Positions 35,146 through 41,346 of a DNA stretch of 62,774 bases are shown here, piece after piece. The stretch comes from an uncultured Phycisphaerales bacterium (lineage in GTDB: Bacteria > Planctomycetota > Phycisphaerae > Phycisphaerales > UBA1924), in contig CALKJW010000031.1 in assembly GCA_937995595.1 (NCBI GenBank), forward strand, positions 1 through 62,774, in the 5' to 3' direction. Both the position numbers and the translations under genes were made by a program. Under the pieces are notes generated by a model, which saw nothing but the letters and a program-made list of their open reading frames with translations, did no database searches and was not told where the DNA came from. The stretch's first letter is position 1; each line of letters begins with the position of its first letter.

Positions 35146-37011
35146 TCAGGCCACGCCCGCCAGCCGCCGCACCGTCATGTCGAAGTTGTGCACCATGTTG
35201 GCCCGCAGGCCGTACACGACGGCGACGTAGGCCAGCGCGGCGACGGCCGAGCCCATCAGCAGCGAGACCCGCGCCGACGACATCGCGTGCGACTGCACCG
35301 TCTGCTGCAGCGCCGACTCGGGCGCGATCGCCGCGTTCACCGCCGTCGCCGGCGACATCGCCGCCAGCGCCGCGCCCACGAACGGGATGTCCACGCCCGC
35401 CTTGTGCCCGCACAGGCCGACGATGCCCGCGACCAGCCCGACCAGCCCCACCGTCGCGACCACCGCCGACAGCGAGCCCTTGCTCTTGAGCGACCACTGC
35501 ATCCCGACCATCACCACAAACGCCATGAACGGCACCGTCACCAGCGCCACCGCCACCGCCCCCTCGGGCAGGATCGCCGGGGCCGACTCCGTCACCCCCG
35601 GCGGCGCGTTGAACAGCGCGTACGTCACCATCACCCCGCCCGTGCGCGACACCATCCCCACCTGGTGCGCCAGCACGTACAGGCCCGCCATCGCCAGAGT
35701 CCCCACCGGCACCGCGATCAGCGGCAGCAGGTACGCCACCATCCCGCGCATCTTCCCGCCCAGGTACGCGGCCGGGGTGATCGGCGTCGTCAGCAGCAGG
35801 TCGAGCGTGCCGTCCTCGCGCTCGCGCGCGACGCTGGTCGCGGCCATGTTCACCGCCACCAGCGTGATCACCGCCAGTTCGCCGATCACCGTGAAGTACA
35901 CCACGTCTCGGAAGGTCTCGGGCGCGACGATCCCGCCGCCGTGAAAGTACAGCACCACGCCCAGCGCCCACAGCGCCCCGCACAGGATGAACGACCACCG
36001 CGCCAGCATCCGACCGAAGGTCGCGTTGCGGGCCGCGGCCTCGCGCCAGGCGATCGGGTTGTGCCACACGTGCCGCGCGGGGCGCGACTCGGCGCCCCTG
36101 GCCCCGAGGCCGAACATCCGCCGGTACCACGGCACGCCGCCGCGACCGCCCAGGCCCCCCAGTCCCGCCAGCCCGCCGATGCGCACGGTGATCGTCGAGG
36201 CGACCATCAGCGCCACGCTCAGACCGCCCGAGAGCAGGCACCAGGTGAGGACGGGCTTCTCGAGGAACCACGCCGCCAGGCCGGCCTGCGAGCCCTCGGG
36301 GTACGCGGCGTAGCCCGTGGGGTTCAGCAGCGCGGCCAGCGCGAGGAAGGGGTTGATCGACGTCATCCACGTGACCAGCCCGCCCCCGCCGATGAGCGTG
36401 TCCACGCCGTACGTGACGGCCAGGTAACTCACGACCGAGACGTAGAAGGCGAACACCGCCCGCTTGCCGACCAGACGGCTCACCGACAGCGCGATCGCCA
36501 TCGAACCCACCAGCAGCGCGGCGCACGCCGCGACCGCGTAACTGGCGAAGATGGAGCGCCCCGGCACGCCGCCGAAGTACTGCGTCAGCGCGAACAGCGG
36601 CAGGCTCGACACCAGCAGCGCGAGGATGAAGAACAGCCGGCCGAAGAGGTTGCCCAGCACGATCTCCGCGGCGGACATGGGCGTGGTGAGCAGGATGTCC
36701 CACGTGCGCGGGTTGGCCTCCTGCGCGATGGCCCCGGCCATGAAGACCGGCGCAAGCACGCAGATCAGCGCGATCTGCAGGTAGGCGACGACGGCGAACG
36801 CGCTCGACGCCGCCGCGGCGAGTTTGAGTTGCGTCAGGTCGCCTCCCGCGGGCATGACCAGCAGCAGGTACAGCAGCGTGACGATCAACGCACCGAGGTA
36901 GATGGTGCGGATGTACAGGTGACGCGTGCGGCGCGAGCCGCCCTGCACCAGGCGCACCGCGATCGGGTTGATCGGGCCGAGTCGCAGCAGCCAGCGGAGG
37001 GCGACGGGCAT
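35146..37011 (-). CDS. ABC-2 type transporter permease, internally duplicated
   Basis: 621 residues from the ATG at 37011. Two membrane halves each contain the motif WDILLTTPMSAAEIVLGNL and LDLLLTTPITPAAYLGGKM, with preceding RTWD/EDGT sequences, so the gene looks like a fusion or duplication of the ABC-2 module. About twelve hydrophobic helices are seen (GALIVTLLYLLLV, LFFILALLVSSLPLFAL, VTLVAVNMAATS and others). Family members export lipids, polysaccharides or drugs. No ATPase gene is next to it. It lies 70 bp downstream of the halogenase-like gene on the same strand. Confidence 0.88.
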   Translation of the reverse strand: MPVALRWLLRLGPINPIAVRLVQGGSRRTRHLYIRTIYLGALIVTLLYLLLVMPAGGDLTQLKLAAAASSAFAVVAYLQIALICVLAPVFMAGAIAQEANPRTWDILLTTPMSAAEIVLGNLFGRLFFILALLVSSLPLFALTQYFGGVPGRSIFASYAVAACAALLVGSMAIALSVSRLVGKRAVFAFYVSVVSYLAVTYGVDTLIGGGGLVTWMTSINPFLALAALLNPTGYAAYPEGSQAGLAAWFLEKPVLTWCLLSGGLSVALMVASTITVRIGGLAGLGGLGGRGGVPWYRRMFGLGARGAESRPARHVWHNPIAWREAAARNATFGRMLARWSFILCGALWALGVVLYFHGGGIVAPETFRDVVYFTVIGELAVITLVAVNMAATSVAREREDGTLDLLLTTPITPAAYLGGKMRGMVAYLLPLIAVPVGTLAMAGLYVLAHQVGMVSRTGGVMVTYALFNAPPGVTESAPAILPEGAVAVALVTVPFMAFVVMVGMQWSLKSKGSLSAVVATVGLVGLVAGIVGLCGHKAGVDIPFVGAALAAMSPATAVNAAIAPESALQQTVQSHAMSSARVSLLMGSAVAALAYVAVVYGLRANMVHNFDMTVRRLAGVA

Positions 37012-37081
37012 GGCCCGAGATGGTACGGCGGGCACGGGGCGCGGGCCGTCTTCTGACCGCGCCGCGGCGTTGACGCGGGCG

Positions 37082-38833
37082 TCACGCGGGCCGCTTGTAC
37101 GGGCCCCACTCCGCCGTGTAGATCTGCTTGCCCTCGCGCGGGCTCTCCAGTTGGATGGCGGGGCGTCCGGGCCTGTGAGAGCAGGAGACCCACCCGTTCA
37201 CGGCCATGGCCTCCAGGCACATGATGCACTGCTGGTAGGTGTTCTCGATCGCGTCGGCCGGTGTCGAGGCGCGCAGCAGCGCGAGCAGTTGGTGCGTGAA
37301 GCGCTCCGCGTCGGGCGTGGTCCTGAGGATGTCGTGCACCGGCCTGTATCCGCCCGCGAGCGTGAGCGTGCGCTCGCCGCGGACGTACGCCTGCACCGGC
37401 ACGATGCGCCCGTTCTGCAGGCCGGCCACGGTGGTGCGCGTCGCGCCCAGCAGGTTGAGCCTGAAGTGGTTCTTCCCGCTGATGAGGAAGTCGACGCCCG
37501 CGTCGCCGACGTGGTTGAGCCGCCACTGCACCTGCTTGATCCCCGCCAGGTCGAGGCCGCCGATGACGAACTGCCCGAGGATGTCGTCGATACCCCCGTT
37601 GCTGAGCCATCGGAACGCGTCGGCGGGGTTGAGCGTCAGGCCGCTCTCTTTGGCGATCCTGCTGCAGTTCTCCTGGATCGCGCTGAACAGGCCGTTGCCC
37701 GTGTACCAGTAGTCGGCAAAGCGGATGTGCTGCCGGACGCGCTTGAGCTGGATCGACTCGTACTGCCCCAGCAGCCAGCGCGGGTCGTGCTCGCCGCGGT
37801 CCAGTTCGAGGATGGTGTACGCCAGGTGCTGCGCGCAGGTGTGCGTGAGCGTGAGGCCCGCCGAGAGGATCGGGTCGGCAAATCCCAGGCACTCGCCGCA
37901 CAGGAACCAGTTCTTCCCGTACGCCCGCTCGGCGACGTACGACCAGTCGGTGGTGGAGTCGATCCGGCCGCGCGGCTTTCCGTCGCCGATCAGTTTCATC
38001 ACCAGCGGGTCCGACCGGATGGCCTCGTGGTACAGGTCCTCGGGCTTCCTGCCGGATTTCTTGTAGTACTCGGCGTTGCACACCAGGCCGATGCTCGTCC
38101 GGTCGAGCGCGAGGGCGATGAACCAGATCCAGCCGTACGCCGTCGAGCGGATGTGGATGCGCGTCGCGCCGCCCTCCCAGATGCCGGCGTTCATGCCCGG
38201 CGCGGCCCAGTAGTCCCAGAAGGCGATGTTGCGCAGCAGCGTGGGCGCGTCAACCTGCACGCCCAGCGCCCGCCGCAGCACCGCCGCGTTGCCCGACGCG
38301 TCGACGTAGTGGCGCGCCGTGACGCGCTCGCCGTTCTCCAGGACCAGCGATCGGACAACGTCGTCGGCGTGCTCGACCGCGGCGACCTTGGTTCCCTGCC
38401 TGACCTCGCAGCCCATCGACTCGGCGTGGTCGAGCAGGATGCGGTCGTACTCGGCGCGGTCCACCTGCAGCGCGACGCGCGTGCGCCACCCCTCGTACTT
38501 CCCGGGCCGCGTGTAGTCCTTGGGGATCTCGCTGACCGGGATGAAGCCGAACGTCCACGGTTCGGTCGTCTTGCCCCAGGTGTACGTCGCGCCGAACTTG
38601 ATGGGGAAGTCCGCGGCCTCGACCTTGTCCCACACGCCCATCTCGTGCAGGATGCGTCCGATCGGCGGCAACTGGCTCTCGCCGATGTGGTCGCGCGGGA
38701 AGCGCTCGCGCTCCAGCACGAGCACGCGCAGGTCCGGGTTGTACTTCTTCAGCAGCGTGCCCACGGTCGAACCGCCCGGACCGCCACCGACGATGGCCAC
38801 GTCGTACCGATTCTCAGTCTGTGTCGCGGACAT
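37082..38833 (-). CDS. FAD-dependent halogenase-like oxidoreductase
   Basis: 583 residues from the ATG at 38833, with a GAGGAGAGC site. The FAD-binding fingerprint is VAIVGGGPGGSTVGTLL. GESQLPP, a lysine in FPIKFGATYTWG (Lys79), GWIWFIAL (WxW at 235-237) and FADPILSAG (318-326) match the tryptophan-halogenase/single-component halogenase family; the last fits the FxxPxxSxG motif used to tell halogenases from hydroxylases. The C-terminal ~200 residues (FADYWYTGNGLF...) are alpha-helical and longer than in tryptophan halogenases, nearer to phenol/pyrrole halogenases. The substrate is unknown and no carrier-protein or PKS/NRPS gene is adjacent. Non-halogenating oxygenase activity remains possible. 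Confidence 0.85.
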   Translation of the reverse strand: MSATQTENRYDVAIVGGGPGGSTVGTLLKKYNPDLRVLVLERERFPRDHIGESQLPPIGRILHEMGVWDKVEAADFPIKFGATYTWGKTTEPWTFGFIPVSEIPKDYTRPGKYEGWRTRVALQVDRAEYDRILLDHAESMGCEVRQGTKVAAVEHADDVVRSLVLENGERVTARHYVDASGNAAVLRRALGVQVDAPTLLRNIAFWDYWAAPGMNAGIWEGGATRIHIRSTAYGWIWFIALALDRTSIGLVCNAEYYKKSGRKPEDLYHEAIRSDPLVMKLIGDGKPRGRIDSTTDWSYVAERAYGKNWFLCGECLGFADPILSAGLTLTHTCAQHLAYTILELDRGEHDPRWLLGQYESIQLKRVRQHIRFADYWYTGNGLFSAIQENCSRIAKESGLTLNPADAFRWLSNGGIDDILGQFVIGGLDLAGIKQVQWRLNHVGDAGVDFLISGKNHFRLNLLGATRTTVAGLQNGRIVPVQAYVRGERTLTLAGGYRPVHDILRTTPDAERFTHQLLALLRASTPADAIENTYQQCIMCLEAMAVNGWVSCSHRPGRPAIQLESPREGKQIYTAEWGPYKRPA

Positions 38834-39305
38834 CAGCCCGCTCTCCTCACCACCGCGCCGCGCGCCAACCCCGTCGCAACAGGCATCCCGGTGCGTGTAT
38901 ATCGGGCCGCGGCGACCGAGGCAAGACCCGTGGTCAGGGATTGCACGCAGGGAAGCCAAGGATTTGTTTTTTGTAAGGTATTCGGTTTCGCCCGTGGTGT
39001 GCTGTAAGTGTTGATTCGGCAGAAGATTCGGTTCTCGGTCCGGTTTCGAGCCCGGCGCGGGTGAAAGCGGTCCGTTCGCGACGGGATTCGATCACTTTTC
39101 TCTTGCATGTCGCTCAACAGTGGGGTATCTTCGGGGTTGGATGGAGAGAGGTACTCCCAGGAAACTCGGGGCACCTCGTCAATCGTGTTCGTTTTCGGCT
39201 GTGGTTTCGTGCGCTCCGCCGCGAAGCCCACAGCCCGCGGTCGTCGGTGCGTGTGCAACCGGGCCCGAGGTGTGAAAAGCGGTGGAGCACTTGGGAGATT
39301 TGAAA
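38834..39305. other. Divergent intergenic region halogenase / PEP-CTERM gene
   Basis: No gene is seen. An AT-rich patch (about 38960-39010, GGATTTGTTTTTTGTAAGG) is in place for the halogenase promoter, and the other half holds the PEP-CTERM promoter at 39103-39131 plus a long 5' UTR. Confidence 0.6.
39103..39131 (+). promoter_or_regulatory. Sigma-70-like promoter of PEP-CTERM gene
   Basis: TTGCAT (39103-39108), 17-bp spacer, TATCTT (39126-39131). The 5' UTR to the ATG at 39306 would be about 168 nt. Confidence 0.65.
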
Positions 39306-39941
39306 ATGAAGATCGCTTCTGTTTTGGCTTCGGTTGCCGGACTGGCGATTGCCAGCGCGGCGATGGCGCAGGGGTTCCAGACCTACGGCGGCGCGGTGGA
39401 TCCCGCGGTGCCCATCCCCGACAACAACCAGGCGGGCGCCTCGGTGTCGGTCGATGTGGCCTCCAACGGCTTTGACATCGTCGGCGACATCTACGTCGGT
39501 ATCATCGTCCGCCACACGTGGCAGGGCGACCTCCGCATCACGCTGACCAGCCCGGGCGGCACCACGGTCGTCCTGACCGACCGCCCCGGCGTGCCGCAGA
39601 GCACCTTCGGCTTCTCGGCCGACAACTTCGGCGACCCCGCCGCGGGCATCCCGATGATCTTCGATGTCGCCCCGTTCGCGACGCAGACCTACGACCTGCC
39701 GCAGGTCGCCAGCCCCGGCATCGCCAACGTGACCGGTTCGTGGCTGGCCGAGGGCGACCTGGCCACCTTCATCGGCGAGAACAAGGTCGGCGTGTGGACG
39801 CTGTCCGTCGTTGACAACGCCGGTGGCGACACGGGCGCGATCGAGTTCTTCTCCTTGACCATCGGCAAGGTCCCGGCCCCCGGCGCTGCCGCGCTGCTGG
39901 GCTTGGGCGGCCTCGTCGCCGCTCGCCGCCGTCGCAACTGA
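39306..39941 (+). CDS. PEP-CTERM protein with proprotein-convertase P-like domain
   Basis: 211 residues. A signal peptide (1-22, ASAAMAQ) precedes a beta-sandwich resembling the proprotein-convertase P domain: VGIIVRHTWQGDLRITLTSPGG, ENKVGVWTLSVVDNAGGDTGAIEFFSLTI. The tail is VPAPGAAALLGLGGLVAARRRRN, the exosortase-type sorting signal. A surface or matrix role is likely. The last ~80 nt and 3' flank are almost the same as those of the next gene. Confidence 0.9.
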   Translation: MKIASVLASVAGLAIASAAMAQGFQTYGGAVDPAVPIPDNNQAGASVSVDVASNGFDIVGDIYVGIIVRHTWQGDLRITLTSPGGTTVVLTDRPGVPQSTFGFSADNFGDPAAGIPMIFDVAPFATQTYDLPQVASPGIANVTGSWLAEGDLATFIGENKVGVWTLSVVDNAGGDTGAIEFFSLTIGKVPAPGAAALLGLGGLVAARRRRN

Positions 39942-39974
39942 CGGCGAACCGCCTCGGACATCCTGATTCATCCG

Positions 39975-40010
39975 CAACCGCCCGGTCCTTGCCGCCGGGC
40001 GGTTGTTTTT
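39975..40010 (+). terminator. Intrinsic terminator after first PEP-CTERM gene
   Basis: CAACCGCCCGG/CCGGGCGGTTG stem (11 bp) followed by TTTTT. Confidence 0.9.
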
Positions 40011-40112
40011 GTCCTGCACAACCGACGCCGACGGCTCCCGTCACGCCGTCCGGCACGCTGCGGGCCTGCTTAGGCCGGTCACAGAAAGCGCGCCCGCGAG
40101 CATGGAAATCCC

Positions 40113-40140
40113 TTGCCATCCACGGCAAATCTGGTAGATT
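40113..40140 (+). promoter_or_regulatory. Sigma-70-like promoter of second PEP-CTERM gene
   Basis: TTGCCA (40113-40118), 16-bp spacer, TAGATT (40135-40140). The 5' UTR would be about 175 nt. With the terminator at 39975-40010 this fills the 379-bp gap. Confidence 0.55.
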
Positions 40141-40320
40141 CACAGTATTCCAAGCAATGCTCCGAACTGGAGACTCGGCGCACCAACTTGAGGGTCGTTT
40201 GTGGTGTGAGGGAGAGGTTGTGCGCACTGCGCCTGCCGCGAGCAACCGAATCCCGGTTCAAACTTCGTGTGCATCGCGCACCACGTGTCGTGGCGCGGCA
40301 GCAGGAGAGAGGAGAGAGGT

Positions 40321-41346
40321 ATGAGAGTCCATGTGTGGGTTGCGTTTGTCGCCGGCGCGGCGGTGTCTTCCGCCGCGATGGCGCAGTTCTCGGAAACCGA
40401 AGACAACAACACCAAGGCGACGGCCAACATCATCGGGCCCGTTGTCCCCGGCAGCACGCTGACGGGGACTTCGACCGGCACGAGCACAACGGCCACGGGG
40501 ATCGCCACGGCCGACTACTTCCGACTCGACTTCGGTGGCGGCCCGCTGGGCATCTACCGCTGGACGGCGGAACTGACCTCGCAGACCGCCGGCCACACGG
40601 CGACCATCCGCGGGCTGAGCCAGACCGGCGCCGCCGCGGCCCCGTGGATGCCGGGCATGCAGGTCGGCACGCCGCAGGCCGGCACCGACACCGCCCCGCA
40701 GTCGAGCCAGACGGTGGGAACGACGCGCGTGAACGCGTGGTACTCCTTCGGCCGTCCGCACTCGATGTTCTACCGCGTGACCGGCACCACGTCGACGACC
40801 GAGCAGTACACCGCGACCTTCTCGTCGTCGGTGGTGACGCCGCTGAACGCGGGCACGTTCCAGCCCGGGGCGATCACCATCAACTCCAACGGCCAGGGGC
40901 ACTCGACCGACACCGACTTCTGGGTCTATGACAGCAACTTCAACGCGATCGTCGGCTACGGCAACGACGACGCGAGCGCGAACAGCGGCGGGAGCGTGAC
41001 CACCGGCACGCAGGCGTTCATGATCCGCGACTTCGCCCCCGGCACCTACTACCTGGCGATCTCCAACTTCAACCTCGCCAACAACCAGCCGTCGCCGTCG
41101 GACGACGCCTTCCGCACCGGCTCGATTCTCGACTTCCCGGACATGGTGCTGAACAGCTCGACCACGGCGAACCTGAACGTCACATTCACCATCTCGGACG
41201 CGTTCGGCAACTCCGTCCAGACCGCCGCGACCAAGGTCGCCGCCTTCGACATCGTCTGGGCGCAGTTCACGGTTGTCCCCGCCCCCGGCGCCGCCGCGCT
41301 GCTGGGTCTGGGCGGCCTTGTCGCCGCTCGTCGCCGTCGCAACTGA
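40321..41346 (+). CDS. PEP-CTERM secreted protein with PPC-like repeats
   Basis: 341 residues. A signal peptide (1-22, SSAAMAQ) is followed by FSETEDNNTKATAN, the common start of bacterial pre-peptidase C-like (PPC) domains in planctomycete surface proteins. A second half repeats the pattern (DTDFWVYDSNFNAIVGYGNDDAS...GTYYLAISNFNLA). The sorting tail VPAPGAAALLGLGGLVAARRRRN is the same as in the preceding gene. A GGAGAGAGGT ribosome-binding site immediately precedes the ATG at 40321. Function is probably structural or adhesive. Confidence 0.9.
   Translation: MRVHVWVAFVAGAAVSSAAMAQFSETEDNNTKATANIIGPVVPGSTLTGTSTGTSTTATGIATADYFRLDFGGGPLGIYRWTAELTSQTAGHTATIRGLSQTGAAAAPWMPGMQVGTPQAGTDTAPQSSQTVGTTRVNAWYSFGRPHSMFYRVTGTTSTTEQYTATFSSSVVTPLNAGTFQPGAITINSNGQGHSTDTDFWVYDSNFNAIVGYGNDDASANSGGSVTTGTQAFMIRDFAPGTYYLAISNFNLANNQPSPSDDAFRTGSILDFPDMVLNSSTTANLNVTFTISDAFGNSVQTAATKVAAFDIVWAQFTVVPAPGAAALLGLGGLVAARRRRN

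Follow-up and report, generated by a model that had tools for sequence, protein, structure and literature searches.

The chloramphenicol halogenase CmlS (PDB 3i3l) shares with the enzyme described here the catalytic domain of the flavin-dependent halogenases (FDH) and equivalents of E44, K71 and D277, the last being conserved as Asp in 83 of the 105 family members compared below. As many as 483 of the 550 CmlS residues align with our structure model (Z 32.2, rmsd 4.2), but the two proteins are only about 23% identical and CmlS Y350 corresponds to His369. The pyrrole and related halogenases PltA, Mpy16 and ChlB4 have in common with our enzyme the FPxKFGA lysine motif and FxDPIxSxG, and differ from it in their length of about 450 aa, and therefore in having no long C-terminal extension, in a GD motif where ours is GE, and in forming a separate group in the tree. 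FasV (8zop) and CndH (3e1t) give the best structural matches to the catalytic domain (Z 36.0 and 36.5), although their alignments reach no further than model residues 426 and 478, which is ahead of the winged helix predicted for our enzyme or in its first part. The peptidyl tryptophan dihydroxylase QhpG (PDB 7ctq) combines a FAD domain with a C-terminal winged helix, the layout predicted for our enzyme, and 412 of its 429 residues align with the model (Z 29.6, rmsd 5.6), but it is a hydroxylase and the identity is 15%. The QhpG paper places the catalytic domain up to residue 344 and the winged helix at 349-429, names CmlS as the nearest structure, and describes a protein substrate and Trp181/Trp183 in the channel; the alignment must therefore largely cover the QhpG winged helix. 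The leader-dependent peptidyl brominase SrpI resembles the role proposed below, as a flavin enzyme halogenating a ribosomal peptide, but according to its paper it has no recognition (RRE) domain. The PqqD-like RiPP recognition elements may share the three-strand, three-helix winged-helix order predicted for our C-terminal domain, but no sequence similarity between the two beats a MarR control.

The gene studied here lies in a stretch of 62,774 nucleotides from an uncultured Phycisphaerales bacterium, which we call the window. It is read on the minus strand from an ATG at 38833 to a stop codon at 37084-37082 and encodes 583 codons, with the following parts:

37082..38833, minus strand: halogenase-like flavoprotein gene, 583 aa
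37706..38833, minus strand: N-terminal FAD/halogenase catalytic domain, approximately residues 1-376, holding Glu52, Lys79, WIW235-237, Asp296, FADPILSAG 318-326 and His369
37163..37495, minus strand: predicted winged-helix domain (structure model), residues 447-557, within the extension 378-583

The initial annotation had described a halogenase-like flavoenzyme on the basis of sequence motifs. All of them are present at the exact positions, namely GxGxxG (G16-G21), GESQLPP (51-57), Lys79, WIW (235-237) and FADPILSAG (318-326), and the similarity to the family is far beyond chance. The Pfam model Trp_halogenase (PF04820) scored 115 bits against a curated cut-off of 21 (E 4.1e-33), and a phmmer search of the PDB returned CmlS (E 5e-45), FasV (1.3e-44) and PltA (1.6e-44), with Mpy16, ChlB4 and CndH as further best solved relatives by sequence. 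A family-profile search was led by PltA with 250 bits, ahead of Mpy16 (240) and ChlB4 (233); the PltA/CmlS-type halogenases spanned 226-250 bits against 36 bits for QhpG, the geranylgeranyl reductase structure 3oz2 obtained 39 bits, and the flavoprotein 3nix lay between with 167. Among the NCBIfam models, the window enzyme scored 177 bits with the CmlS equivalog (NF033113; cut-off 900), 98.9 with QhpG (NF049967; cut-off 240), and 70 and 48 with the LodB and GoxB maturases (NF038171, NF038174; cut-off 400); the geranylgeranyl reductase model TIGR02032 gave 82 bits (cut-off 158.8). All of these models score below their cut-offs; as judged from its sequence, the enzyme thus falls within the FDH superfamily but outside every named equivalog. 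A grouping with geranylgeranyl reductases, the outcome that the initial annotation had regarded as fatal to its claim, was rejected, the CmlS model and the PltA profile both scoring far above their reductase counterparts and Lys79 and Glu52 being found in every member compared. In the scans of the source genome the enzyme family was found at the window locus only, and a flavin reductase is encoded in the same genome.

To describe the active site we used a family set of 105 distinct full-length members from 95 loci, from which three loci repeating a named record and one partial sequence were left out. Glu52, Lys79, Trp235, Trp237, Ile239 and F-x-D-P are invariant in the 105 members, as is G21 of the GxGxxG fingerprint, and G16 and G18 are found in 103 (two gaps). 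PltA, CmlS and FasV have their Lys at the position of Lys79, and in PltA and CmlS it is the second Lys of a KK pair. The window sequence WIWFIA satisfies the WxWxI core, with the Pro of WxWxIP replaced by Ala240, and this Pro is present in 97/105 members. In the motif sources (PMC12871659, PMC10377541, PMC8407142), a published pipeline accepts WxWxI(P) as the FDH motif and a review reports variants or absence of WxWxIP in known FDHs. The tunnel motif Fx.Px.Sx.G is complete in the window enzyme (FADPILSAG, with Ser324); across the members the Ser position is occupied by Ala in 81 and by Ser in 24, and the GD motif is GE in 100. The tunnel Ser is kept in all of 20 shorter FDH-like paralogues, which were hand-picked from the shorter matches in a search of 301 genomes. 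A single offset maps CmlS E44, K71, D277 and Y350 onto E52, K79, D296 and H369; position 296 is Asp in 83 members, Asn in 21 and Glu in one, and at position 369 there are 98 His and seven Tyr. With Lys and Glu invariant, the tunnel Ser and GD replaced in most members and the Pro replaced in the window enzyme, halogenation is plausible from these residues, and more so in the window enzyme than across the family.

The AlphaFold2 model of the whole enzyme (pLDDT 85, pTM 0.88) gave a structural ranking headed by CndH, FasV, RadH, Bmp2 and CmlS, with Z values from 36.5 to 32.2, and in Foldseek CmlS was the top match of the whole model (E 1.2e-33). Hydroxylases follow closely in Z (PqsL 31.1, HspB 30.0, the p-hydroxybenzoate hydroxylases about 29), so the fold cannot separate a halogenase from a hydroxylase. 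The initial annotation had taken the motifs to indicate halogenases and not plain hydroxylases. Membership in the FDH superfamily was sustained, but the exclusion of hydroxylases was not, because the peptidyl-Trp hydroxylase QhpG shares the fold and has its two Trp residues in the channel, the window enzyme carries WIWFIA instead of WxWxIP, the tunnel Ser is absent from most members, and PqsL lies within about one Z unit of CmlS.

The extension that follows the catalytic domain (residues 378-583) matched no Pfam or NCBIfam family, and when the extensions of 20 sequences (the window enzyme and 19 relatives) were scanned, each family match was confined to one member. Modelled alone, the C-terminal piece reached pLDDT 80 and pTM 0.70, most of its core lying at 91-97 and one block at 78, and the core is ordered as strands, three helices and a strand. 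In a Foldseek search of the PDB its best match was the C-terminus of CmlS (E 4.6e-3, probability 0.99), which we take to be a winged helix; ranks 2-4 were unrelated and of low probability, and PKMT1, ThcOx and PqqD occupied ranks 5-8 with E > 0.3. The VIA-align search of the same piece listed in rows 1-8 TbiB1, TbtB (twice), MibB, ThcOx (twice), PqqD and NisB, six RiPP enzymes with Z 7.5-5.5, matched presumably through their recognition domains. Rows 9-13 held protein- or peptide-modifying enzymes, namely the hydroxylase MINA53 (twice), a histone methyltransferase-type enzyme, TglHI and PKMT1, and later rows were mixed; CmlS obtained Z 3.3. In this program Z below 8 may mean merely a common arrangement, and a family missing from its lists was not counted as absent. 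A sequence link to PqqD was rejected, since hhalign gave 5.9% over 55 columns and a MarR control the same 5.9% over 18 columns. From the model, the C-terminal domain is predicted to form a winged helix of the kind seen in peptide-modifying enzymes, and our best guess is a QhpG-type layout with a docking winged helix.

A search of 301 genomes from the order gave a match at E <= 1e-20 in 109 of them; the full-length enzyme (rows below 1e-150) is carried by 62, some with two or more copies, at times in tandem. A sample of 294 genomes across the phylum contained 10 with a match at 1e-60, four of these outside the class. The named relatives are 18 loci from MAGs, whose labels can err: 10 are labelled Phycisphaerales, Phycisphaerae, Phycisphaeraceae or Planctomycetota, five Armatimonadetes (two from one MAG), and one each Proteobacteria, Gammaproteobacteria and Xanthomonas. 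The family set is made up mostly of Phycisphaerae, together with Armatimonadota and proteobacterial MAGs. In the tree the 105 members form one group on a long stem (SH-aLRT 100, by a quick method), apart from PltA/Mpy16/ChlB4 and from the 20 shorter FDH-like paralogues of the order; its closeness to CmlS and FasV, two long branches, is only weakly supported (68). The paralogues (L131-L150) represent a second FDH-like set common in the same order, of about 400-470 aa and, by length, with no C-terminal extension. The papers listed on FDHs or halogenases in connection with planctomycetes, Phycisphaerae, PEP-CTERM or RiPP recognition elements, judged by title, included none describing this family, and none was found that joins tryptophan halogenase with TonB-dependent and LacI. 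The clade is a conserved group of halogenase-type flavoenzymes that falls outside the named families and carries a predicted docking-type extension.

The gene downstream of the enzyme is:

35146..37035, minus strand: ABC-2 permease, 629 aa, an order-wide gene that we judged to lie outside the system

The initial annotation had noted this permease as the next gene on the same strand, which is correct (46 bases separate the enzyme stop from the permease start), and had drawn from it a link to an exporter. The link looks accidental. The immediate neighbours of the permease in the window are the enzyme and a MarR-type regulator, the permease occurs in 270 of the 301 genomes against 62 for the enzyme, and it stands beside the enzyme in only three (G000, G228, G131) of the 58 enzyme-bearing genomes, out of 62, whose permease place is listed. 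An exporter operon was rejected as the system for these reasons. Of the exported small halogenated product suggested at first, the export is thus unsupported, and the C-terminal domain and the neighbours point elsewhere, while a small metabolite stays among the rival readings. The same annotation had reported no PKS/NRPS gene nearby; its NRPS part was borne out and extended by a search for the NRPS condensation domain across the genome assembly (96% complete), which found none.

At the 38 loci where genes had been called, each neighbour family occurs in six loci at most, and no short precursor-peptide family was recognised near the enzyme among the small-ORF clusters listed. A link to sugar uptake was rejected, the sugar ABC transporter or LacI genes found near the enzyme in L033, L044 and L049 not being general. 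We also observed, at 15 loci (L036, L051, L067, L068, L081, L088, L089, L092, L103, L105, L106, L112, L115, L117, L121), a secG-like gene (named by eye) 1-3 kb from the enzyme, in most cases with a yicC-like gene, which is a stable housekeeping place. At L061 (G131:C13) the enzyme, a tailed secreted-type protein and an ABC-2 permease stand together, in an order and orientation that differ from the window.

Upstream of the enzyme, and divergent from it, the window holds two genes for secreted-type proteins:

39282..39941, plus strand: P-domain protein, 219 aa, divergent from the enzyme, proposed partner or substrate
40267..41346, plus strand: another protein of secreted type, ending in the same tail; Pfam gives no match

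The P-domain protein has a signal-peptide-like start and a C-terminal tail that is hydrophobic and contains RRRR. Both proteins (39282-41346) share their last 23 letters (VPAPGAAALLGLGGLVAARRRRN), and their bodies differ.

The recurrent neighbour of the enzyme is a protein of secreted type whose hydrophobic C-terminal tail closes with RRRR or the like. A tail detector, designed after examples had been seen, found 13 such proteins within 1.5 kb of the enzyme gene (277 kb), six at 1.5-3 kb and five beyond 3 kb (677 kb). The near/far comparison, which leaves out the six of 24 matches at 1.5-3 kb and treats related genomes as independent, gave a binomial p of 0.0002, and p 0.001 when counted per locus (10 vs 4). 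Some tailed or P-domain proteins that a profile finds escape the detector, for example those at L037, L038 and L054 and the one nearest to the enzyme at L059. The 15 enzyme-bearing genomes contain 25 P-domain genes (counted from matches in 61 genomes, adjacent fragments merged), and six of them, in four genomes, lie within 3 kb of the enzyme; four genomes compare with 0.07 expected, in a sample in which the association was first noticed and with kinship between genomes ignored, and 3/14 genomes remain without the window's own. The same association of the enzyme with a tailed/P-domain neighbour was found at L037 and L038, in proteobacterial MAGs. By the detectors used, most loci are without an adjacent tailed protein. 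A special Trp in the neighbouring P-domain proteins was considered as the target; HTW/HSW also occurs in P-domain proteins from 5/12 fetched regions not beside the enzyme, and the idea therefore gains no support.

Comparison with G228, a genome of the same genus in which the gene order is that of the window, revealed a marked divergence at the locus. The flanks are 76-97% identical (permease 95.5, ClpC-type protein 97, MarR 78 and a GH20-type protein, in two pieces, 90 and 76; some names by eye). The enzyme is 59.8% identical and the second tailed protein 69%; the P-domain neighbour stands at 42%, although its signal peptide and tail are almost the same in both genomes. The window enzyme groups instead with the enzyme of another genus at another place (73% identity, support 100/100), and a clade of the window and G228 enzymes was rejected (lnL 81 worse). 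Among the 60 syntenic pairs listed, which overlap, the enzyme lies within five points of the flank median identity or above in 50; the other 10 fall further below, most of all the window pair (81 vs 59), then L053-L070 (71 vs 50), and the remaining low pairs are L070-L110 and pairs with L080 or L091. The drop in identity against the flanks and the grouping with the other-genus enzyme indicate that the enzyme gene was probably replaced at the window locus, together with a strong change in the core of its neighbour. Such a replacement fits a matched enzyme-neighbour pair, though the case stands alone, and the same picture would arise at a recombination hotspot.

Taking these data together, the reading we prefer, tentatively and with a confidence that stops short of probable, is an FDH-type enzyme from the CmlS/PltA branch whose substrate is docked, be it a peptide, a protein or a carrier-bound molecule. 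Its basis by sequence or prediction consists of the fold family, the invariant Lys, Glu and both Trp, and the predicted winged helix; the flavin reductase in the genome, the tailed neighbours and the shared divergence of enzyme and neighbour also speak for it. Considered separately, halogenation seems somewhat more probable than hydroxylation, and a docked substrate is mildly favoured over a free one; the C-terminal domain and the neighbours make a free small metabolite look less probable. In the mechanism proposed, a separate reductase would supply reduced FAD, which would react with O2; the resulting peroxyflavin would oxidise halide to HOX, which would move through the WIW/FADP tunnel and be held on Lys79, with Glu52 as the acid. 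The electrophile would then attack the substrate at an aromatic or enol group, the C-terminal winged helix perhaps keeping this substrate in place over the active site. Against this reading stand the Ala at the tunnel Ser and the GE motif in most members, while the shorter paralogues keep the Ser, and hydroxylase structures that align nearly as well as those of halogenases. The middling Z of the winged helix, the unrelated Foldseek ranks 2-4 and a PqqD profile equal to the MarR control also weigh against it, as do the lack of a precursor-peptide family among the small-ORF clusters listed, the many loci with no adjacent tailed protein and the group beside housekeeping genes. That the adjacent P-domain protein is the docked substrate in this genome is doubtful. 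A more far-reaching version, which we consider improbable, is a family of surface-protein halogenases, in which an aromatic residue of the adjoining secreted, C-terminally sorted protein would be halogenated, docked by the winged helix before export.

A CmlS-like halogenase of small molecules, its winged helix serving as a lid or tunnel wall and its product being a halogenated lipid, pigment or metabolite, is the nearest competitor, unlikely as we judge it. CmlS is the top Foldseek match of both the whole protein and the C-terminal piece, and PltA, Mpy16, ChlB4 and FasV are also close by profile, but the loci share no neighbour family beyond six of 38, the genome holds no NRPS condensation domain, CmlS Tyr350 is His in nearly all members, and the score with the CmlS equivalog is far from the required 900. 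A lower chance is given to a QhpG-like monooxygenase of peptides or small molecules that would use the peroxyflavin directly, with no halogenation; the two-domain layout, the 99 bits of the QhpG model, the 412 aligned residues and the absence of the tunnel Ser from most members speak for it, whereas the halogenase Lys is invariant, the profile scores lie with the PltA/CmlS type rather than with QhpG, and a scan of 150 genomes of the class found no protein above the QhpG cut-off. The GE motif and the Ala at the tunnel Ser in most members could also indicate a diverged flavoprotein that neither halogenates nor hydroxylates, such as a reductase, a redox partner or a dead paralogue in a structural role; catalytic positions that stay conserved in 105 members whose records bear the labels of several phyla, and the far lower scores of the geranylgeranyl reductase models, make this the least probable reading of all.

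The enzyme is carried by about one fifth of the sampled genomes of the order (62/301), and its meaning depends on the substrate. If docked proteins or peptides are acted on, the clade would represent a class of halogenases that carry a recognition domain of their own, which SrpI reportedly lacks, and a lead for site-directed protein halogenation. Should the surface-protein version hold, the enzyme and its substrate would form a cassette that is swapped as a unit at one fixed locus, and the cell surfaces of bacteria from several phyla would bear halogenation as a post-translational modification. With a small or carrier-bound substrate, it would be a large unassigned halogenase-type clade in which most members have lost the tunnel Ser and GD, and the roles of these residues could therefore be tested within it. 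Additionally, two enzyme copies stand side by side, head-to-tail, at L037, L044, L066, L067, L068, L069, L070 and L118; each copy is 44-48% identical to the window enzyme, and the two may possibly have different specificities.
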